Part shown: positions 31,597 to 42,417 of the stretch, one piece after another
Layout: each line of letters opens with the position of its first letter
How positions within the stretch are numbered: the first letter of the stretch is position 1
Assembly: GCA_016868855.1 (NCBI GenBank)
Contig: VGFP01000001.1
Span: forward strand, 434,001-498,000
Reading direction: 5' to 3'
DNA: 64,000 nt
Origin: Bacteroidota bacterium
GTDB lineage: Bacteria; Bacteroidota; Bacteroidia; Chitinophagales; Chitinophagaceae
Made by a program: the position numbers and the translations under genes
The notes under the pieces: generated by a model
Seen by the model: the letters and a program-made list of their open reading frames with translations, nothing else
The model's database searches: none
What the model was told of the DNA's origin: nothing

Positions 31597-31627
31597 TGAA
31601 AGGCATCTTCACCAAGATGCCTTTTTT
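31597..31627 (+). terminator. Terminator after the DUF2911 gene, probably bidirectional
   Basis: Stem AAAGGCATCTT with AAGATGCCTTT around a short CACC loop, flanked by A-run and T-run, so it can act for the + transcript and for the convergent esterase. Confidence 0.8.
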
Positions 31628-32417
31628 ATTTCATATACAACCAAGAGAGAAAAATAGGCATCACGCTCGACCAGGTAGCAACATCATGCGTTCCGTCGGG
31701 CAACTCAACATAGGTTATTTGTCGCTCCCGCTGAAAACCTATCTTCTCCAATTCATGTATGATATCAAGCGTATCATCAATCGAATCGATGATACCGTTT
31801 TTATTGCGATCCGCTTTCTCATCCTTTGCTCCCGTTTGAAGAAAAAACCGCTGATGTAAATTGTTTTGTTTTGTCCTGATTTTGGCGTGCATGATTCGAT
31901 CACGCTCTTCCACATAATCATCTTTCAAATTAATCGAACGCCACCAGAATGAACCACTGAAAACCCCTGCTGCATTGAATTCAGCGGGGAATTCCAATGC
32001 CAAATCAAATGCCATCAATCCGCCCAGTGAAAATCCGGCTGCATATTTATTTCTGACCTCCCAACCTCCCATCTTTTTCTTCAGATATGGCAACATCTCC
32101 TGAAGGAGAAAAAATGTATATAAATCTGCTTTTGAACCCCTGTTCATAAAATCAGGCTTCCCCGTTACGCCATATTCTAATTTGCGCTCTGCACCAGCAT
32201 GTACCCCCATCACCCACAAAGGAGTCTCCTCATTTCCCATCTTGTCCAACCAGCGCCTCAGATCCATTTTCAATACATCTTGTCCATCGTTTACAATGAG
32301 CAAATCAACCGCATTTGCATGGGCCATTTGCTTTGGGGAGTAAAGATCAACCCTCACCTCTCTTTTAAGTGCAAGTGACTGAATGTGATGAACCGTAAAT
32401 GATGTGGTATTGATCAT
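31626..32417 (-). CDS. Alpha/beta-hydrolase esterase (Esterase_D-like) with calcium-loop insert
   Basis: A cytosolic 263-residue esterase with no signal peptide. The nucleophile elbow GFSLGG has Ser130; His244 in DGTHDVATW and an acid near Asp199-Glu200 (TGAKDE) complete the likely triad. Strand pattern and the VNDGQD oxyanion segment fit the enterochelin-esterase/esterase D group. Just after TGAKDE is DRNKNGIIDSIDD (203-215), which matches the DxNxNGxIDxxD calcium-binding loop of EF-hands and dockerins. The substrate is unknown. Confidence 0.82.
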   Translation of the reverse strand: MINTTSFTVHHIQSLALKREVRVDLYSPKQMAHANAVDLLIVNDGQDVLKMDLRRWLDKMGNEETPLWVMGVHAGAERKLEYGVTGKPDFMNRGSKADLYTFFLLQEMLPYLKKKMGGWEVRNKYAAGFSLGGLMAFDLALEFPAEFNAAGVFSGSFWWRSINLKDDYVEERDRIMHAKIRTKQNNLHQRFFLQTGAKDEKADRNKNGIIDSIDDTLDIIHELEKIGFQRERQITYVELPDGTHDVATWSSVMPIFLSWLYMK

Positions 32418-32478: not shown

Positions 32479-33447
32479 ATGAAGAAAATAGGCATCCTCC
32501 ACGGCAAAGAACGCTCTTTCCCCGAAGCATTCGTTGAGCGCGTCAACCAGAAAAAAGCAAAAGGTATCATTGCAGAACCTGTAAAAATTGACAAAGTAAT
32601 TCAAGGTGCGGCATCTGACTATGCCGTCATCATCGACAGGATTTCACAGGATGTTCCTTTTTACAGAGCATTTTTAAAAAATGCCGCCATCAGCGGAACA
32701 GCTGTGATCAACAATCCATTCTGGTTCAGTGCCGATGAAAAATTCTTCAACAATGCCTTGGCTACTAAAATTGGAGTACCCGTTCCTAAAACTGTTATTC
32801 TTCCTTCAAGAGAACTTCCTGATGACACATCAGCTGAGTCGTTTTCGAATCTTGCCTATCCATTGGACTGGAAAGGAATCTTTGAATATGTTGGATTTCC
32901 GGCATACATGAAACCATTTTCCGGAGGTGGATGGAAAAATGTATACAAGCTGAACAACATGGAAGAGTTTTTTGAACGACATGCAGAAACAGGACAACTT
33001 GTGATGCTGCTTCAGGAAGAAATCATTTTCACTGAATATTACAGATGTTATTGCATTGGCAGAAAACATGTAAGGATTATGCCTTATGAACCAAGAAATC
33101 CACATCACCTCAGATATGTCGCAGAACACAAACCCTCTGCAAAGCTCTTGAAAGAAATGGAAAGCATTGTTCTTAAGATCAACCAATACCTGGGATATGA
33201 TTTTAATACGGTAGAACTTGCTGTAAGAGATGGCATACCTTATGCCATTGATTTCTGTAATCCCGCACCAGATGCAGATCTCAAGAGTGTTGGCAAAGAA
33301 AATTTTGAATGGGTAGTAGAAGCTGCAGCCAGCTATGCCATTGAGTTGGCAGAACAACATACTGACAAGAGAGATAACCTCGTTTGGGGTGAGTTTGTTA
33401 AAAGAAGTGCAAACCAACAGCCATTGATCAACAGCTCAAAAAAATAA
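32479..33447 (+). CDS. ATP-grasp ligase (first gene of amidoligase cluster)
   Basis: A 322-residue cytosolic protein with an ATP-grasp fold of the RimK/D-Ala-ligase kind. After an N-terminal pre-ATP domain (MKKIGILHGKERSFPEAFV) come Lys88 in DEKFFNNALA, Lys145 in AYMKPFSGGGWKN (glycine-rich lid), LLQEEIIFTEYYRCYCIG, and the metal-binding end E246 (NTVELAVRDG) and D258-x-x-N261 (AIDFCNPAPDAD), where Asp takes the place of the usual Glu. ATP-grasp enzymes couple an acyl phosphate to an amine or thiol. The substrate is not evident. The next gene starts 2 bases after the stop, and five genes run in the same direction. Confidence 0.85.
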   Translation: MKKIGILHGKERSFPEAFVERVNQKKAKGIIAEPVKIDKVIQGAASDYAVIIDRISQDVPFYRAFLKNAAISGTAVINNPFWFSADEKFFNNALATKIGVPVPKTVILPSRELPDDTSAESFSNLAYPLDWKGIFEYVGFPAYMKPFSGGGWKNVYKLNNMEEFFERHAETGQLVMLLQEEIIFTEYYRCYCIGRKHVRIMPYEPRNPHHLRYVAEHKPSAKLLKEMESIVLKINQYLGYDFNTVELAVRDGIPYAIDFCNPAPDADLKSVGKENFEWVVEAAASYAIELAEQHTDKRDNLVWGEFVKRSANQQPLINSSKK

Positions 33448-33449
33448 AT

Positions 33450-34556
33450 ATGGTCGATTACAAAGTCTTTACAATTGGCATTGAGGAAGAGTACATGGTG
33501 ATTGATCCTGTTTCAAAAGAATTGGTCAGCCATGAGCAACAGATTGTAAGCGAGGGACAAAAGATATTCAAGGACAAAGTAAAAGCAGAAATGCACCAGG
33601 CGGTGGTGGAAGTTGGTACAGACGTATGTGCCAATATTGAAAATGCACGCAAAGACATCACACACCTGAGGGCAACCATCAAAGAAATAGCTACCTCCAA
33701 AGGATTCAGCGTGGGTGCTGCGGGTACACACCCATTCAGCACCTGGAGAAAACAATTGATCACCGATCATGAGAGATACCAAGAAATTGTAAATGAAATG
33801 CAAGATGCTGCAAGATCAAATCTGATATTTGGTCTTCATGTACATGTTGGCATGCCCTCAAAGGAAATGGCCATTCACATAGCAAATGCTGCGAGGTATT
33901 TTCTTCCGCATGTATTTGCTTTAAGCACCAATTCACCTTTTTGGGAAAGAAGAAATACCGGTTTCAAATCATACAGGACCAAGGTATTTGACAAATTTCC
34001 CAGGACGGGTATTCCCGATTATTTTGATAGCTACAGCGTATATGAAAATTATGTAAACCTGTTGATCAAAACAAAGTGCATCGACAACGCAAAAAAAATA
34101 TGGTGGGACCTGCGCGTACATCCTTTTTATGGAACGGTCGAATTCAGGGTATGTGATGTACCCATGACGGTAGATGAAAGTGTGGCTTTTGCTGCTCTTT
34201 TTCAATGTATCTGTGCCAAACTCTTCAAACTTAGACTATCCAATCTAACCTTCATGATTTATCCCCGCGCGCTGGTCAATGAAAATAAATGGAGAGCTTC
34301 CAGGTATGGAATTGACGACAAACTGATTGATTTTGGAATTGAGCAGGAAGTCCCTACCAAAGACCTGATCATGGAATTACTTGATTTTGTTGATGATGTT
34401 GCAGATGAATTGGGGTGCAGATCTGAATTGAAAACAATTGAAAAAATTATTCAAAATGGAACCGGGGCTGACAGGCAACTAAAGGTTTTTCATGAGAAGC
34501 AGGACCATGAATCAGTTGCAGCATACATAGAGTCTAATTTTCTCGCCAATCTCTAA
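33450..34556 (+). CDS. Carboxylate-amine ligase, GCS2/YbdK-like
   Basis: A 368-residue enzyme of the glutamate-cysteine-ligase type 2 (COG2170, YbdK) family, which is built on the glutamine-synthetase fold. The hallmark metal and ATP site GIEEEYMVID is at residues 9-18; HQAVVEVGTDVC, GAAGTHPFSTW, LHVHVGMPSKE, SPFWERRNTGFKSYRTKVF and WDLRVHPFYGTVEFRVCD follow in family order. YbdK enzymes join glutamate or another carboxylate to an amine, but the acceptor here is unknown. It is separated by 2 bases from the ATP-grasp gene. Confidence 0.92.
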   Translation: MVDYKVFTIGIEEEYMVIDPVSKELVSHEQQIVSEGQKIFKDKVKAEMHQAVVEVGTDVCANIENARKDITHLRATIKEIATSKGFSVGAAGTHPFSTWRKQLITDHERYQEIVNEMQDAARSNLIFGLHVHVGMPSKEMAIHIANAARYFLPHVFALSTNSPFWERRNTGFKSYRTKVFDKFPRTGIPDYFDSYSVYENYVNLLIKTKCIDNAKKIWWDLRVHPFYGTVEFRVCDVPMTVDESVAFAALFQCICAKLFKLRLSNLTFMIYPRALVNENKWRASRYGIDDKLIDFGIEQEVPTKDLIMELLDFVDDVADELGCRSELKTIEKIIQNGTGADRQLKVFHEKQDHESVAAYIESNFLANL

Positions 34557-34561
34557 AATTG

Positions 34562-34569
34562 TACTTTTG
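34562..34569 (+). promoter_or_regulatory. Internal -7 element before the amidotransferase-like gene
   Basis: TACTTTTG matches TAnnTTTG and ends 8 bases before ATG 34578, in the 21-base gap after the ligase. It may give a second transcript for the last three genes of the cluster. Confidence 0.5.
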
Positions 34570-34577
34570 CAGGCAAG

Positions 34578-35417
34578 ATGAGTACCCTGAAAATCGCTGT
34601 GTTAGATCTGAACGAAGGAATGAAAAATGAAGGGATGAGGTGTATCAGGGAAATCCTTGAAAGAGTCCAATCTTCCCACTGTAAAAATCTTACCTGGGAG
34701 GAATTTGAAGTCAGAAAATCCATACAGATTCCTTCGCTTGATTTTGATATCTACATTTCATCCGGTGGACCAGGAAGTCCACTGGAAAGCAAAAATACCG
34801 CTTGGGAAAATTCCTATTTCAACTGGCTGAACACTGTGAATCAATGGAACAATGATTCCAGCAACGCAAGGAAGAAATATGTTTTTCTGATTTGTCATTC
34901 TTTTCAATTGGCCTGCCGTTGTTTTGGCATTGCCGAAGTCATCAAAAGAAAATCAACCTCCTTCGGTATATTCCCCATTCATATGCTGAAACACCATGGA
35001 GCTATTGATATGATTTTTAACGGGCTGCAAGATCCCTTTTTTGGTGTCGACAGCCGAGATTATCAAGTAATACAACCAGATAAAAAGAAAGTGCAAGAGA
35101 TGGGAGGAGAAATCCTCTGCATAGAAAAAGAGCGTCCGCATATCCCTCTCGAAAGAGCTGTAATGGCGATTCGTTTCAATCCTTATATGGTGGGGACCCA
35201 ATTCCATCCAGAAGCGGATGCATCTGGCATGAGCATGTATTTGATGCAAGATGATAAAAAGAAGCATGTAATTGAGAACCACGGACTTGAAAAGTGGGAG
35301 TCGATGATTGAACACTTGAATGATCCAGATAAAATCAGTCTGACCAATAGCCAGATTCTTCCCAATTTTATCATGCAATCCATAGCAGCACTGAACAATC
35401 CCTATTCTTTGTCATGA
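34578..35417 (+). CDS. Class I glutamine amidotransferase-like enzyme
   Basis: A 279-residue GATase1-fold protein. IYISSGGPGSPLES matches the oxyanion loop GGPxxP, C106 in LICHSFQLAC is in the nucleophile-elbow place (usually CxGxQ), and H210-P-E212 in GTQFHPEADASG completes the triad. The elbow differs from the standard GICLGHQ, so it may be a gamma-glutamyl hydrolase or amidase like PuuD rather than an ammonia donor; no synthetase domain is fused. The stop overlaps the next start by 4 bases (ATGA). Confidence 0.85.
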   Translation: MSTLKIAVLDLNEGMKNEGMRCIREILERVQSSHCKNLTWEEFEVRKSIQIPSLDFDIYISSGGPGSPLESKNTAWENSYFNWLNTVNQWNNDSSNARKKYVFLICHSFQLACRCFGIAEVIKRKSTSFGIFPIHMLKHHGAIDMIFNGLQDPFFGVDSRDYQVIQPDKKKVQEMGGEILCIEKERPHIPLERAVMAIRFNPYMVGTQFHPEADASGMSMYLMQDDKKKHVIENHGLEKWESMIEHLNDPDKISLTNSQILPNFIMQSIAALNNPYSLS

Positions 35418-36607
35418 TTTCAACTTTAAGAAAAGCATATAACCAGTCCTTCACAAAAGAGAAGTACGAAGCTTTTTTAAAAGAATTGAACAGCCTGCAT
35501 CCAGGTGCGATCGATTTCAGGATTGCAGAAACACCTATTTACATTGATAAAAGGCTTAAACAGCAAATGCTTGACACAAGCTCTTATATCATACAGCATA
35601 TCCAATCACCCGCATTTAAACAGGAAGTCGCGCATGCCATTCCGAATGGAGAGTTTTTCCCAAATCAGAATAAAATACCCCACTGCCTTGTATTTGACTT
35701 TGGTATTTGCAAGAATAAAAAAAACGAAATGTTCCCAGCCTTGATTGAACTGCAAGGCTTTCCCTCCCTTTATGCCTTTCAGGGCGTGTACCCGGCTATG
35801 TTTGAAAAATACTTTCCAGCTCCGGATGGATACTCAACTTTTTTCAATGGATACCAATATCAAACCTATCTGGATACATTGAAAAATTTCTTTTTGGGAA
35901 GCCATCAGCCATCAGAAGTTATTTTGCTGGAGATCAAACCGCATGAGCAAAAAACAAGGATTGATTTTTATCTGACCGAATCATTGTTTGGAATAAAATC
36001 AGTATGTGTCTCAGAGTTAAAATTGGAGGGAAATAAACCCTATTACTTATTGAACAAGGAGAAAAAATATATAAAAAGAATTTACAACCGTGTGATCATT
36101 GATGAACTGAATCAAGAGAAAGATGCATTGGGAACATTGATTGACTTTCAGGGTGACATCGATGTAGAATGGTTGCCGCACCCCAATTGGTTCTATCAGA
36201 TTTCAAAATATTTGCTTCCTTACCTTCATCATCCATTTATTCCTGCAACTTCGTTTCTGGATGATCTTACTGAAATTCCAAACGATCTGGAAAATTATGT
36301 ACTGAAACCACTTTTTTCATTTGCAGGACAAGGTGTAATCATTGACGTAAAGGCATCTGACATTGAAAATATAAAAGACCCATCTAACTGGATTTTACAG
36401 AAAAAGGTACAATATGCAGACTGTATTGAAACACCCGACGGAAATGCAAAGGCGGAAATCAGACTGATGTACATTTGGATTGAGGAGGATGATGAACCAA
36501 TCCTTCTTACCAATCTCGCAAGACTGAGCAAGGGCAAGATGATCGGTACACGCTACAACAAAGACAAAGAATGGGTGGGAGGAACAGTCGCTTACTTTGA
36601 AAAATAA
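35414..36607 (+). CDS. Uncharacterised ATP-grasp-like protein
   Basis: A 397-residue soluble protein with no clear named family. The N-terminal half contains YFPAPDGYSTFFNGYQYQTY; the middle has KRIYNRVIIDEL; and the C-terminal third has ATP-grasp-like features: K298 in NYVLKPLFSFAGQGVIID (Lys plus glycine-rich lid), WILQKKVQYADCIE, AEIRLMYIWIEEDDEPILL and LSKGKMIGTRYNKDKEWVGG. The order recalls atypical or permuted ATP-grasp ligases such as glutathionylspermidine synthetase-like proteins. Start ATG overlaps the stop of the amidotransferase-like gene by 4 bases. The call rests on local motifs only. Confidence 0.7.
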   Translation: MISTLRKAYNQSFTKEKYEAFLKELNSLHPGAIDFRIAETPIYIDKRLKQQMLDTSSYIIQHIQSPAFKQEVAHAIPNGEFFPNQNKIPHCLVFDFGICKNKKNEMFPALIELQGFPSLYAFQGVYPAMFEKYFPAPDGYSTFFNGYQYQTYLDTLKNFFLGSHQPSEVILLEIKPHEQKTRIDFYLTESLFGIKSVCVSELKLEGNKPYYLLNKEKKYIKRIYNRVIIDELNQEKDALGTLIDFQGDIDVEWLPHPNWFYQISKYLLPYLHHPFIPATSFLDDLTEIPNDLENYVLKPLFSFAGQGVIIDVKASDIENIKDPSNWILQKKVQYADCIETPDGNAKAEIRLMYIWIEEDDEPILLTNLARLSKGKMIGTRYNKDKEWVGGTVAYFEK

Positions 36608-36612
36608 ATGCC

Positions 36613-36933
36613 ATGCCGCATATCAATACAATAAAAAAGAAATTATTGAGTCAAGGAATTAGTGGACAGTATGTACATGGACAACAACTGACAACTGGCT
36701 GGGTAACCATTGAAAAAGGAAGTAAGCTGCAATTGCACCATCATCCCCATGAACAAATAACGATCATGCTAGAGGGACAATTGGAAATGCAGATTGGGGA
36801 TGAAACTGTCCTATTGGAGAAAGGCATGATACAGGTAATACCCTCGATGGTTCCACACAGCGCTGTTGCACATGAGGACTGCATACTGATTGATGTGTTC
36901 AATCCGGTTAGAGAGGATTACAGGGAAGCTTGA
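36613..36933 (+). CDS. Single-domain cupin protein
   Basis: A 106-residue cupin. Motif 1 (HHHPHEQITIMLEGQLEMQIG, ligands His44, His46 and Gln48 or Glu47) and motif 2 (PSMVPHSAVA with His82) provide a full metal site. It starts 5 bases after the preceding gene and ends the five-gene run; its stop TGA is directly followed by the stop of the convergent CusB gene. Cupins of this size are isomerases, dioxygenases or ligand sensors; the role here is unknown. Confidence 0.88.
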   Translation: MPHINTIKKKLLSQGISGQYVHGQQLTTGWVTIEKGSKLQLHHHPHEQITIMLEGQLEMQIGDETVLLEKGMIQVIPSMVPHSAVAHEDCILIDVFNPVREDYREA

Positions 36934-38067: not shown

Positions 38068-41000
38068 TTATTTTTTCTCGGTTAAATATTTGAACTCAGC
38101 CAATGAGAATTGAAGTGACTTTACAACATCGGCATACGATATCTTGATTTGAAGTGCCTGATTTACCAGCAATGCCCATTCGGCAAATGAAATATCACCA
38201 CTCTTGAAACGAACAGATGCCTGTCGGGTCATTTCATCAGACATTTTCAAACCTTCACGTCTGTAATACTGAAATATTTCAATTTGTTTCTGATAAGTTG
38301 ATGACAATTTGGTGAACTGTGTATGAAGCTGCTCCAATTTCTGACTCCTATTCAGTTCGGTGATTTCCAATCCAATTTTAGATGACTTAATCTTGGCTTT
38401 TGCTGCACCATTGAAAATAGGTAGTCCCATGCCAAATTGATAAATACCAAAGCGAGTGTTTCCACCATAATACTTCAAAGAAATACCATCGGGTGATTGC
38501 CAGCCAATAATTGACAAATTGCTATACCCCAGGTTAAAATCCGGAAGCAATTTATTTTTCTCAATATTGATGAGTGATTTTTGTTGTGCAACCAAGGCAT
38601 CGGAAACACCCAACAGCGGATGAGATTGAAATGAATACATATTGGTTTGCAGCCATTCAAATTGAAGTGAATCAGCCTGAGGCAGTATTTCGGATCCGTT
38701 GTTTTTAAGTAAAATATTGAGTTCTGCAATCAAACCATTTTTTTCTGCAATCAGCAACTGCTTTTGCAAGGCCTGTTGAGCTGATTGCACTTTGATGGCA
38801 TTCAACACACTGTTGTTTATTTCGCCCTGATCTTTTTGTACGGTCGCAACCCTCGACCATTCTGCAAAATTTTGTTCGACTTCGTTCAAAATATCTTCTC
38901 TTCTGTCAAGATCCAGTATGGAATAACAAATCTGCCTTACGCGCCAATTCAATTCAGCCTTTGTCAATGCAGTTTGTGAAACCCCCAAGTTAATTTGTTG
39001 ATCGTATAACTTTTGCTGTGCCTTGTATACCATCGGCAACTGAAATCCCTGGTTGAAAAATATCCTGGTATCATTGAACGCACTGTTGATATTTCCGTAC
39101 TCCAGTCCGGTTAACGTTTTAGCTATTTCTGCAGGTCTGGCACGCAACGCCCGATATGATTCGGTATTTTTCTCTGAGACCTTGATCAAATATGATTTAC
39201 TGTCTGCCATTGAAACAATGGAATCAATTGGCAGGAATTGTTTGGATTGAGAGAATCCTGTTGAAGAAGCAAAGATTCCAATCAACAGAATAGATAAAGA
39301 TTTTGACATAGTAACTTTCTTTTTCTCTACCCAAGCAAACAGCACAGGCAATACAAACAGGGTCAAGAATGTTGCTGATATGAGTCCACCAATCACAACC
39401 GTTGCCAGTGGCCTCTGTACCTCAGCACCGGAGCTGATGCTCAGTGCCATGGGTAAGAAACCAAGGGATGCAACAGCAGCAGTCATCAATACTGGTCTGA
39501 GTCGGCTGGTAGTCCCTCTAATCACCAATTCCTTCACATCAATTTCAGTTTCTTTTTTAAGCTTGTTGAATTCATTGATCAACACAATGCCATTGAGCAC
39601 CGCCACTCCAAACAATGCGATAAATCCAATACCTGCAGAAATACTGAATGGCATATCTCGAGCCCAGAGCATGAGGATTCCACCGATGACAGATAGGGGG
39701 ATAGCTGTATAGATTAGTAAACCATAGCGCAGCGATCTAAATGAAAAATACAATATGAGTAGAATCAGCAACAATGCGATGGGGACTGCAATCATCAGCC
39801 TTCCTTTTGCCTCAACCAAATTCTCAAATTGCCCCCCGAATGTTACATAATATCCAGAAGGTAGTTGAATTTTTTCTGCGTTTCGTCGAACATCTTCCAC
39901 GACAGATTGCACATCTCTATCACGCACATTGAAAGCAACGGTGATGCGGCGTTTGGCATCTTCCCTCTGTACTTGGTTCGGACCATCTTCAATAGTAATT
40001 TCTGCCAATTGTTCCAGCGGAACACTGACTCCCTCATTGTTGGTAAGAAGCAAGGTTCTCAAATCTTCCAAATCATCTCTCCTATCTCCTGCGAGCCTAA
40101 CCACCAAATCAAATTTTCTTTCATTCTCATATATTTTTCCGGCTGACTCACCCGCAAAGGAAGTACGCAGCACTTTATTTACCTCTGCAATACTCAGTCC
40201 ATATGCTGCAATGGCATTCTTTTTATACTTGATTACAATTTGAGGCAAACCGGTCACCCGCTCTGCAAATACATCTTTTGCACCGGGAACCTGTTTGATG
40301 ATTTCTGCATATTTCTCAGCATGCGCAGCGAGTGTATCCAGATTTTCTCCAAAAATTTTACACACCACATCCTGCTTTGCTCCAGCAATCAGCTCATTGA
40401 ATCGCATTTGCACCGGATATTGAAATCCCCCTGTCAAACCAGGCACTTTTCCAATGGCAGCACTCATCTTGTTTGCCAACTCATCGTAGGAATCCGCACT
40501 GGTCCATTCTTTTTTATCTTTCAAATTGACGATGATATCTGTCATTTCAATGGGCATTGGATCGGTGGGAATTTCACTCGCACCAATTCTTGTAACAATT
40601 TTCTCTACCTCCGGAAATTTTTGCAGTTCTGAAACAGCTTTTTGCGTCGACTCAATGGTTTCACTCAACGAGGCTCCTGTCATCAGTCTTGCATCAATGG
40701 CAAAATCACCTTCTTCCAATTCCGGAATAAATTCACCTCCCAAACGGGATGCCACCATGATTGAAATAATGAAAAGAGCAATTGCAGCAGTAATTATTTT
40801 TTTGGGATGATCAATCAATTTGCTCAATACATTCATGAATGATGACTGTAATTTGTTCATCCATTTGTCAGAAAACGAATCTTCCCCTGACAATTTTTTA
40901 CTGAGCACCAGGCTGGTCATCATCGGCACATAGGTCAGTGATAATACAAATGCCCCTATCAATGCAAACGCCACAGTTTGTGCCATGGGTTTGAACATTT

Positions 41001-42417
41001 TTCCTTCAATGCCAGTGAGACTGAGAATGGGTATATAAACAATCAAAATGATGATCTGGCCGAAAACAGCTGCGCCCATCATCCTTCCGGCAGATTGTTC
41101 TACCGTGTTATCCATCTGGGTCTGTTGCAACTGCAACACATTCTGTTTATTACCGTGAAGCCGATGCAAGACTGCTTCGACAATGATGACTGCTCCATCA
41201 ACGATCAATCCAAAATCCAATGCACCCAAACTCATCAGATTTCCAGAAACCCTAAACAGGTTCATCATCCCCACCGCAAAAAGCATGGCCAGCGGAATAA
41301 CCGAGGCAACAATGAGTCCCGCACGCAAATTCCCGAGAAACAGGACCAGGATCAGTAGCACAATCAATGCACCCTCCAGCAAATTGGTTTGAACGGTATT
41401 GAGTGTACGTCCTACCATCTTTTTTCTATCCAAGAAGGTGTCTATTTCAATTCCTTCTGGCAATGTCTTTTTGATTTGTTCCATGCGTGCATCGATGCCC
41501 TTGATAACTTCAGATGCATTTTCGCCCTTGAGCATCAATACAACTGCCCCGGAAACCTCTCCCTGATCACGGTAAGTCAATGCCCCATAGCGAATGGGAC
41601 TGCCAATGCGGACATTTGCAACATCACGGATGTAAACAGGTGTGCCCGCGGCAGACTTGGAAACGTATATATTTTGAATTTCTTCGATCCCCTTTGCGAG
41701 TCCCTCTGTTCTGATGAACAGCAGCGCTGGACCCTTTTCGATGTATGCGGCACCAGAGTTTTGGTTATTGGATTCCAACGCATTGAAAACGTCCTGCAAT
41801 GTGACCCCAATTGCTTTAAGTTTTACTGGATCCAATGCAACCTCATATTGTTTGAGTTTTCCGCCAAAACTGCTTATATCTGCCACACCGGGAGTTCCCA
41901 GGAGTTGGCGTCTGACGATCCAATCCTGTATGGTTCTGAGTTCTGTTAAATCATACTTGCTTTCAAATCCTTTTTTGGGACGAACAACATACTGATAAAT
42001 TTCACCAAGTCCGGTCGTTACAGGAGCCAATTCAGGCGAACCGGCTTCTTTTGGAATTTCATCTCTGAACAAGATCATGCGTTCGCTGACCTGTTGACGA
42101 CACCAATAAATATCACGGTCATCATCAAATACAATTGTCACCACCGATAAACCAAATCGAGAGATGGATCTGATTTCTTTGATTCCTGGAATATTAGAAG
42201 ATACCTGCTCAATGGGAAAAGTGATGAGGCGCTCAACTTCCAATGAACCCAGTGTTGGTGAAACAGTTATCACTTGAACTTGATTAGAGGTGATATCAGG
42301 AAGTGCATCCACTGGCAATCGAAGGAGTTCGACTGTTCCCCAAACAATCCAAGCCATCGTGAAGAGTCCGATTACTAACTTATTTCTAACAGAAAATCGA
42401 ATGATGGCATTGAGCAT
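38068..42417 (-). CDS. cusA: Heavy-metal RND pump (CusA/CzcA) fused to TolC-like outer-membrane factor
   Basis: A 1449-residue polypeptide. Residues 1-1036 are a full HME-RND transporter: LPVDALPDITSNQVQVIT, DFGLIVDGAVIIVE with D401, D407 and E414 as in CzcA, and FALFGVAVLNGIVLI-type TM segments near 960. Residues 1037-1449 start at an internal ATG (39309) with a signal-peptide-like MSKSLSILLIGIFASSTGFSQ followed by a TolC/OEP coiled-coil domain (AELNWRVRQICYSILDLDRR; KSSKIGLEITELNRSQKLE). Fusions of this kind occur in Bacteroidota. The internal segment could act as a signal for export and cleavage, or the ATG, preceded by GAAAAAGAAAG, could allow separate synthesis. The adaptor gene follows directly. 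Confidence 0.93.
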   Translation of the reverse strand: MLNAIIRFSVRNKLVIGLFTMAWIVWGTVELLRLPVDALPDITSNQVQVITVSPTLGSLEVERLITFPIEQVSSNIPGIKEIRSISRFGLSVVTIVFDDDRDIYWCRQQVSERMILFRDEIPKEAGSPELAPVTTGLGEIYQYVVRPKKGFESKYDLTELRTIQDWIVRRQLLGTPGVADISSFGGKLKQYEVALDPVKLKAIGVTLQDVFNALESNNQNSGAAYIEKGPALLFIRTEGLAKGIEEIQNIYVSKSAAGTPVYIRDVANVRIGSPIRYGALTYRDQGEVSGAVVLMLKGENASEVIKGIDARMEQIKKTLPEGIEIDTFLDRKKMVGRTLNTVQTNLLEGALIVLLILVLFLGNLRAGLIVASVIPLAMLFAVGMMNLFRVSGNLMSLGALDFGLIVDGAVIIVEAVLHRLHGNKQNVLQLQQTQMDNTVEQSAGRMMGAAVFGQIIILIVYIPILSLTGIEGKMFKPMAQTVAFALIGAFVLSLTYVPMMTSLVLSKKLSGEDSFSDKWMNKLQSSFMNVLSKLIDHPKKIITAAIALFIISIMVASRLGGEFIPELEEGDFAIDARLMTGASLSETIESTQKAVSELQKFPEVEKIVTRIGASEIPTDPMPIEMTDIIVNLKDKKEWTSADSYDELANKMSAAIGKVPGLTGGFQYPVQMRFNELIAGAKQDVVCKIFGENLDTLAAHAEKYAEIIKQVPGAKDVFAERVTGLPQIVIKYKKNAIAAYGLSIAEVNKVLRTSFAGESAGKIYENERKFDLVVRLAGDRRDDLEDLRTLLLTNNEGVSVPLEQLAEITIEDGPNQVQREDAKRRITVAFNVRDRDVQSVVEDVRRNAEKIQLPSGYYVTFGGQFENLVEAKGRLMIAVPIALLLILLILYFSFRSLRYGLLIYTAIPLSVIGGILMLWARDMPFSISAGIGFIALFGVAVLNGIVLINEFNKLKKETEIDVKELVIRGTTSRLRPVLMTAAVASLGFLPMALSISSGAEVQRPLATVVIGGLISATFLTLFVLPVLFAWVEKKKVTMSKSLSILLIGIFASSTGFSQSKQFLPIDSIVSMADSKSYLIKVSEKNTESYRALRARPAEIAKTLTGLEYGNINSAFNDTRIFFNQGFQLPMVYKAQQKLYDQQINLGVSQTALTKAELNWRVRQICYSILDLDRREDILNEVEQNFAEWSRVATVQKDQGEINNSVLNAIKVQSAQQALQKQLLIAEKNGLIAELNILLKNNGSEILPQADSLQFEWLQTNMYSFQSHPLLGVSDALVAQQKSLINIEKNKLLPDFNLGYSNLSIIGWQSPDGISLKYYGGNTRFGIYQFGMGLPIFNGAAKAKIKSSKIGLEITELNRSQKLEQLHTQFTKLSSTYQKQIEIFQYYRREGLKMSDEMTRQASVRFKSGDISFAEWALLVNQALQIKISYADVVKSLQFSLAEFKYLTEKK

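Follow-up and report, generated by a model that had tools for sequence, protein, structure and literature searches.

What the cluster described here makes is the question raised by a run of five open reading frames (ORFs) in a Bacteroidota bacterium of the Chitinophagaceae, which lie on the plus strand at positions 32479-36933 of the window, by which we mean the whole stretch of 64,000 nucleotides that was analyzed (contig VGFP01000001.1 of assembly GCA_016868855.1, positions 434,001 to 498,000). An initial annotation had proposed that an ATP-grasp ligase (here A1), a YbdK-like ligase (Y), an enzyme of the class I GATase type (G), an atypical ATP-grasp-like protein (A2) and a cupin (C) together build and trim a small gamma-linked peptide, thiol or amide. 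We find that the conserved unit is A1-Y-G-A2, often accompanied by esterases of family PF00756, and that the cupin is an addition of Chitinophagaceae type. With a probability that we put at about 0.5, the cluster encodes one non-ribosomal amide-ligase pathway in which Y, A1 and A2 would carry out the ligations by way of a gamma-glutamyl intermediate and G would trim it. The same-direction arrangement and the gaps of 2, 21, -4 and 5 bases given by the initial annotation were reproduced exactly; its five-gene unit was right in that A1, Y, G and A2 are kept together, and has to be redrawn because the cupin is lineage-specific and the esterases had been overlooked.

The grouping of these genes is not chance. 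An evenly drawn set of 296 Bacteroidota genomes, which includes that of the window, was searched for each protein. A2 is present in 91 of them, representing 64 of 140 genera; A1 is present in 107, G in 70 (E <= 1e-10) and Y in 102 (E <= 1e-20), 86 of the latter at an identity of at least 51% and the other 16 (33-46% identity) set aside as another YbdK subfamily. A1 and A2 occur together in 88 genomes, so that A2 is without A1 in 3 of 91. A close Y is found in 86 of the 91 A2 genomes and in none that lack A2 (0 of 86); the five A2 genomes without Y are four of one family, f17, plus G251. G is accompanied by A1 in 69 of its 70 genomes and lacks it in one. Since every genome with a close Y also has A2, and nearly every one with A2 has A1, Y would supply the substrate of A2, and A1 would act in the part common to all versions of the pathway. 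The co-occurrence p-values (5.8e-52 for A1 with A2, 3.1e-69 for A2 with Y) ignore shared ancestry and are descriptive only. This worry is lessened because the genes co-occur even where they are far apart in the genome (A1 and A2 in G072 and G331; G in G105, G163 and G223), and because close relatives differ by the whole set: among 17 sampled genomes of genus g33, three have A2, Y and G and the other 14 lack all four core genes. In one member of that genus, G193, the locus (L101) reads Y-G-A2 in order, with no A1 match at E <= 0.001. The initial annotation had made its case depend on conservation of the genes together in related genomes, and such co-conservation, found across the 296 genomes, supports its view of an amide-building gene set. 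We regard it as very probable that the genes belong to one joint pathway.

Gene order tells a similar story. One hundred neighbourhoods (L051-L150) were fetched and read as runs in transcription order, with one foreign gene allowed between neighbors; because the ORF caller retains the longest frames, it overlooked some core genes (in L123, L124, L125 and L130). The 101 runs of core genes comprise A2 alone (29), A1-Y-G-A2 (19), A1 alone (12), A1-Y-A2 (11), A1-Y (9), A1-G (6), G-A2 (4), G alone (3), A1-G-A2 (3), Y-G-A2 (3), Y-A2 (1) and one split A1. Wherever a run holds at least two different core genes, the order A1-Y-G-A2 is kept (56 of 56), and the gaps are generally below 100 bases (A1-Y, 32 of 39; Y-G, 16 of 21; G-A2, 25 of 28). 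A neighbourhood search over Bacteroidota, which the initial annotation had suggested as a check, thus finds linkage in a fixed order.

Table 1. Features of the cluster and its immediate surroundings, in window coordinates
Feature	Position	Strand	Description
E1	31626..32417	-	PF00756 esterase, nucleophile elbow GFSLG, transcribed away from A1; probable associated enzyme
A1	32479..33447	+	ATP-grasp ligase, RimK/LysX-like, below all curated cut-offs
Y	33450..34556	+	GCS2/YbdK-family carboxylate-amine ligase; GhExE motif as GIEEE
-7-like element TACTTTTG	34562..34569	+	Bacteroidota-type, in the 21-base gap before G
G	34578..35417	+	Class I GATase-fold enzyme, Cys106-His210-Glu212; likely a gamma-glutamyl peptidase/amidase
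A2	35414..36607	+	Ligase of the glutathione synthetase/glutathionylspermidine synthetase/YgiC fold, permuted active-site order
C	36613..36933	+	Small single-domain cupin, lineage-specific companion of G-A2

The two ligases at the head of the cluster differ in how readily they can be placed. Y passes both the Pfam model PF04107 (GCS2; 192.8 bits, cut-off 21) and the NCBIfam model NF010039/PRK13515 for carboxylate-amine ligases (522.2 bits, cut-off 371), and it matches the structure of Escherichia coli YbdK (1r8g) at E 1.1e-50. The sequence GIEEE near its N terminus, conserved as G[IVL]ExE in 42 of 43 loci, corresponds to the GhExE metal/ATP motif of GCS2/YbdK ligases (PMC2588565, excerpt). Y would most likely make a gamma-glutamyl amide. 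A1 resembles the RimK/LysX glutamate ligases in that its relatives match TIGR00768 in 13 of 13 cases (best E 2.5e-10), and it differs from them in that A1 itself lies far under the cut-off (28.8 of 143.4 bits) and carries invariant motifs of its own, KPxxGGGW in 60 of 62 loci and ID[FY]xNPAPDA in 58 of 62. PDB sequence searches with A1 return weak ATP-grasp matches only (best E 0.0028, with a profile), and the order of its residues is the ordinary one, K145 followed by E246, D258 and N261.

A2 resembles a different branch of ligases in its fold. Neither A2 nor A1 passes any curated family cut-off in Pfam or NCBIfam; A2 reaches 15.2 of the 29.3 bits required by PF03738 (GSP_synth), which one of 16 relatives matches at E <= 0.01, and its sub-cut-off matches are to TupA-like ATP-grasp and glutathionylspermidine synthase. 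Structure prediction, another check suggested by the initial annotation, placed A2 with the glutathione synthetases, glutathionylspermidine synthetases and YgiC, and for G gave first matches to the gamma-glutamyl peptidase GGP1 with amidotransferases close behind. For the AlphaFold (AF2) model of A2 (predicted local distance difference test score, pLDDT, 89.7), all 26 PDB matches that Foldseek returned at E <= 0.001 belong to this one fold group, led by the putative glutathionylspermidine synthase 3n6x (1.3e-14). The group holds the glutathione and homoglutathione synthetases of yeast, human and plants and related nematode effector proteins, as well as YgiC/YjfC, GspS, trypanothione synthetase and the E-64 ligase Cp1B; ordinary ATP-grasp enzymes enter the list only from E 0.022. 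Foldseek thus sharpens the description of A2 as atypical and ATP-grasp-like to this fold.

The active site of A2 points the same way. D95, E112 and Q114, presumably the metal ligands, precede K298, which we take to be the ATP lysine (roles assigned by analogy with the fold group, not mapped onto coordinates); all four are invariant in 16 of 16 A2 proteins, and Q329 is nearly so. Metal ligands N-terminal to the ATP lysine are the permutation typical of the glutathione synthetase/GspS/YgiC group. A2 is thus like YgiC/YjfC and glutathionylspermidine synthetase in its fold and permuted active-site order, and unlike them in missing the GSP_synth cut-off and in its metal motif: glutathionylspermidine synthetases carry E-x-N, whereas A2 has E112-x-Q114, with Q in 16 of 16 proteins and E[LM]Q[GA]F in 64 of 70. 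If this placement is right, A2 would be a new bacterial branch of the glutathione synthetase/peptide-polyamine ligase fold.

As we infer the order of steps, Y, A1 and A2 would spend ATP on coupling amino acids or amines into a short peptide or peptidyl-amine, much as glutathione or glutathionylspermidine is assembled. Most likely A2 would extend the gamma-glutamyl amide made by Y, and G would afterwards remove the gamma-glutamyl (N-terminal) residue or recycle the product; in other lineages a metallopeptidase of the M29 type, possibly also an amidohydrolase, would replace G. The PF00756 esterases (E1, and a second type, E2) probably have the carboxyl terminus or an esterified form as their target. 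Such a scheme would have three ATP-dependent amide-forming steps and at least one hydrolytic step, and we give its protect-and-trim use of a gamma-glutamyl group roughly even odds.

Whether G trims the product or feeds ammonia to one of the ligases bears directly on this scheme. G passes the class I GATase model PF00117 (34 bits, cut-off 22.8), and Cys106, His210 and Glu212, the triad named by the initial annotation, are the same in all 14 aligned proteins. An alternative in which G is a glutaminase subunit that supplies ammonia to A1 or A2, making the product a primary amide, draws on this full Cys-His-Glu triad, on the many class I amidotransferase folds that G matches and on the presence of G without Y in some lineages. 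Against it, the first Foldseek matches of the G model (pLDDT 92.5) are 9k7i and 9k7k, structures of Arabidopsis GGP1. The nucleophile elbow around Cys106 reads C-[HY]-S-F-Q in 34 of 38 loci, not the C-x-G-x-Q usual in amidotransferases, and a Q-[FY]-H-P-E motif is found in 38 of 38. G is, moreover, unlinked from the ligases in several genomes, which would be odd for a channeling subunit.

A further argument comes from the 36 A2 genomes that lack G. Five of the fetched loci from such genomes have an M29-type gene immediately behind Y and ahead of A2; it adjoins A2 in four of them and is separated from it by a 137-amino-acid ORF in L067. Two of the five were tested against Pfam and are Peptidase_M29, and the remaining three share 61-65% identity with one of these. 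Six of the 296 genomes have a close copy (59-100% identity); each of the six has A1, A2 and Y, and G is absent from all. A further 46 genomes, of 52 with any M29 match, reached no more than 40% identity and were not counted. Because G and the close M29 peptidase are mutually exclusive, G would be expected to hydrolyze rather than to donate ammonia. Another 18 G-less A2 genomes have an Amidohydro_3-type protein at an identity of at least 44%, a line that favors the clade of the query (80 of the 296 genomes entered this comparison, 74 of them with a match at E <= 1e-20). Its gene adjoins A2 in 11 of the 18, in families f39 and f42, and G072 and G154 each have a related amidohydrolase (33% identity) next to G; this protein is possibly a third trimming enzyme. 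An Amidohydro_3 gene is seen directly before A2 in seven loci from one group of families (L051, L052, L053, L059, L111, L114 and L116), and between Y and G in L066, from a genome of the window's family. On balance, trimming by G is the more likely role, favored by the first fold matches to GGP1 and by the M29 exclusion and not proven by them; ammonia donation, the other role that the initial annotation had allowed, is less favored, and we consider it rather unlikely.

The remaining alternatives concern the product. If A2 were a peptide-polyamine ligase and G an amidase that releases the amine, the product would be a peptide-polyamine conjugate similar to glutathionylspermidine. The fold matches of A2 include GspS, trypanothione synthetase and YgiC/YjfC, and its only profile match in the PDB is YgiC (E 0.12, not significant); YgiC and YjfC are described as peptidyl-polyamine synthetases (PMC12568646, excerpt). 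The same fold group also contains glutathione synthetase and Cp1B, which use other acceptors, and we hold the conjugate to be a serious variant of the favored scheme, though an unlikely one. A pathway for salvage or degradation of gamma-glutamyl amines, instead of biosynthesis, would follow the logic of PuuA/PuuD-like amine use, in which a ligase is paired with a hydrolase of GATase1 fold, and hydrolases and esterases are indeed frequent companions of the cluster. The two extra ATP-grasp ligases speak against it, and no oxidase or dehydrogenase was seen among the recurrent core genes (about 20 neighbor proteins were family-searched), so salvage seems improbable to us. Least probable is a graspetide-type cluster for a ribosomally synthesized and post-translationally modified peptide, in which the ATP-grasp enzymes would cyclize a precursor. 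Graspetide ligases are ATP-grasp enzymes and their clusters do occur in Bacteroidetes (PMC8939145, excerpt), and the macrocyclase AMdnB is a weak fold match of A2 (E 0.022). However, Y and G would be unexpected companions, no graspetide model matched at E <= 0.1, and the gaps in the window's cluster, -4 to 21 bases, are too short to hold a precursor (ORFs below 80 amino acids in the relatives were not searched); we reject the graspetide cluster on the last two counts.

Returning to the gamma-glutamyl scheme, several observations weigh against it, and the chief of these is that G is not tied to Y. Four f17 genomes have G without Y (A1-G-A2 are linked in the three that were fetched), so G cannot act only on the product of Y. 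A sister version of the set makes the same point. Fifteen genomes have A1 at 51-55% identity and no A2, all 15 have G, and eight of the 15 are without any Y at E <= 1e-20; four further A2-less genomes have a remote A1 only (35-43%) and no G. The other objections concern G, A2 and the statistics. The 107 fold matches of G at E <= 0.001 include amidotransferases and homoserine transsuccinylases close behind GGP1, and the highest TM-score among its first ranks, 0.68, belongs to an amidotransferase. Of the 36 A2-positive, G-less genomes, 12 have neither a close M29 peptidase nor a close amidohydrolase, and G247, the sixth of the M29 genomes, has its M29 gene away from A2. A2 stands alone in the 29 runs counted above, and the co-occurrence p-values carry no correction for phylogeny. 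Finally, A2 shares 9-16% identity with its fold relatives, at TM-scores of 0.43-0.61 (normalized to query length), and meets no family cut-off; because of these values we speak of fold kinship and not of family membership.

Ten of the 15 sister loci were fetched, and in seven of them a protein of about 470 amino acids stands with A1 and/or G; in the other three the ORF caller had put other frames over the core, making them unreadable. The protein from L070 shows weak, sub-cut-off similarity to circularly permuted ATP-grasp enzymes, and the seven share 58-61% identity with the first of them. The sister set reads A1, CP_ATPgrasp-like protein, G, often with esterases (L070, L121, L122, L125, L126, L127 and L128). 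A profile-profile comparison of A2 with the CP_ATPgrasp-like protein gave a weak match (probability 8.9, E 0.0037; A2 with A1, 0.2), and because of that weakness kinship of the two is not established by sequence.

Among the closest known parallels is the synthesis and turnover of glutathione, in which Y would correspond to the GCS2 enzyme, A2 to the eukaryotic glutathione synthetase fold and G to the GGP1-like fold. The cluster departs from it in the extra RimK-like A1, in its frequent esterases, in the low identity of A2 to the glutathione synthetase group (9-16%) and in that some lineages do without Y and some without G. We reject a replacement for bacillithiol, since bshC (PF10079) is present in 290 of the 296 genomes with or without the cluster; of the thiol option in the initial annotation, what falls is a bacillithiol substitute, and an additional thiol is compatible with the data. 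We suspect, at somewhat less than even odds, that about one third of the sampled Bacteroidota make a small peptide or peptidyl-amine through glutathione-like ligases alongside bacillithiol, that A2 is a previously unassigned permuted ATP-grasp family, and that both the trimming enzymes (GATase1, M29, perhaps amidohydrolase) and the second ligases (A2, usually with Y, or the CP_ATPgrasp-like protein) are interchangeable. If so, a large share of a major environmental phylum has an unrecognized small-molecule pathway, the genes of which have a generic name or none in the curated libraries. The nested distribution of the genes and the exclusion between G and M29 make the scheme testable. The literature titles and abstract openings that were screened gave no description of the cluster; Iyer et al. 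2009, the likeliest source, was not covered by them. None of the six proteins matched a PADLOC defense model (E <= 0.001), which gives no sign of a known anti-phage defense system, and A2 had no match in 72,556 plasmid records (tblastn, E <= 1e-10).

The -7-like element that the initial annotation noticed in the gap before G is present, and its pattern is conserved before G in relatives. The first T of TACTTTTG lies 16 nucleotides from the start codon of G, which would give a very short leader if the element is used. The counts that follow come from the named set (L151-L230), the best 80 of 581 relatives, with start codons picked by a script as the methionine nearest the reference length. Of 62 usable loci, 52 have TAnnTTTG within the 80 nucleotides ahead of G, against a background of 2.75% per 80 nucleotides; the corresponding figures are 13 of 17 for E1, 4 of 17 for A1, 2 of 78 for A2, 1 of 20 for Y and 1 of 20 for C. 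The stricter TAHHTTTG precedes 35 of 62 G genes, at exactly 12 nucleotides from the start codon in 17 of the 35. A -33-like TTG was found at the expected place in only 3 of these 35, which disfavors a full consensus promoter. As the first T of the -7 element is at -12 (PMC6847099, excerpt), such messages would begin at the AUG or within a few bases of it. The spacing before G would thus imply leaderless messages, against the norm in Flavobacterium johnsoniae, where 87% of predicted transcripts have leaders longer than 10 nucleotides (PMC6847099, excerpt).

Of the accompanying genes, E1 scores 77.4 bits against the PF00756 cut-off of 22, and 19 of 58 loci have an esterase of its type close to A1 (36 of 58 when E2 is counted as well). 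E2 (median 239 amino acids) was seen in 31 loci, 26 of which have it immediately ahead of A1 and on its strand, and the elbow is GxSFG in 29 of the 31; two E2 proteins tested are PF00756 members. Neither E2 nor the amidohydrolase has a match in the window's own genome, which is weak evidence given an assembly (1.43 Mb, 14 contigs) that is 87% complete. C scores 52.1 bits against the Cupin_2 cut-off of 27.2, and its homologues (BLASTP, E <= 1e-6) are confined to loci of the window's family type, L131 being the only one among L051-L150. Among the best 80 of 581 relatives that form the named set, the typical unit is G-A2; A1 or Y is displayed around A2 in 14 and not in the other 66, some of which come from contig ends, and a C homologue follows within four genes of A2 in 20 of 80. 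Cultured carriers with all four core genes at a single locus include Gynurincola endophyticus HBUM179779 (L183) and Longitalea luteola SYSU D00799 (L166). Most of the fetched loci from the window's genus that cover the region have the set joined into a single stretch, with SahH-PdxJ on one side and a heavy-metal pump of the resistance-nodulation-division (RND) type on the other; nine of these have the cupin and some lack it. In the window itself, a 1449-amino-acid ORF on the minus strand (38068-42417) looks by eye like a CzcA-type RND pump with an extension resembling an outer-membrane factor, and its homologues adjoin the cluster in most loci of the same genus.

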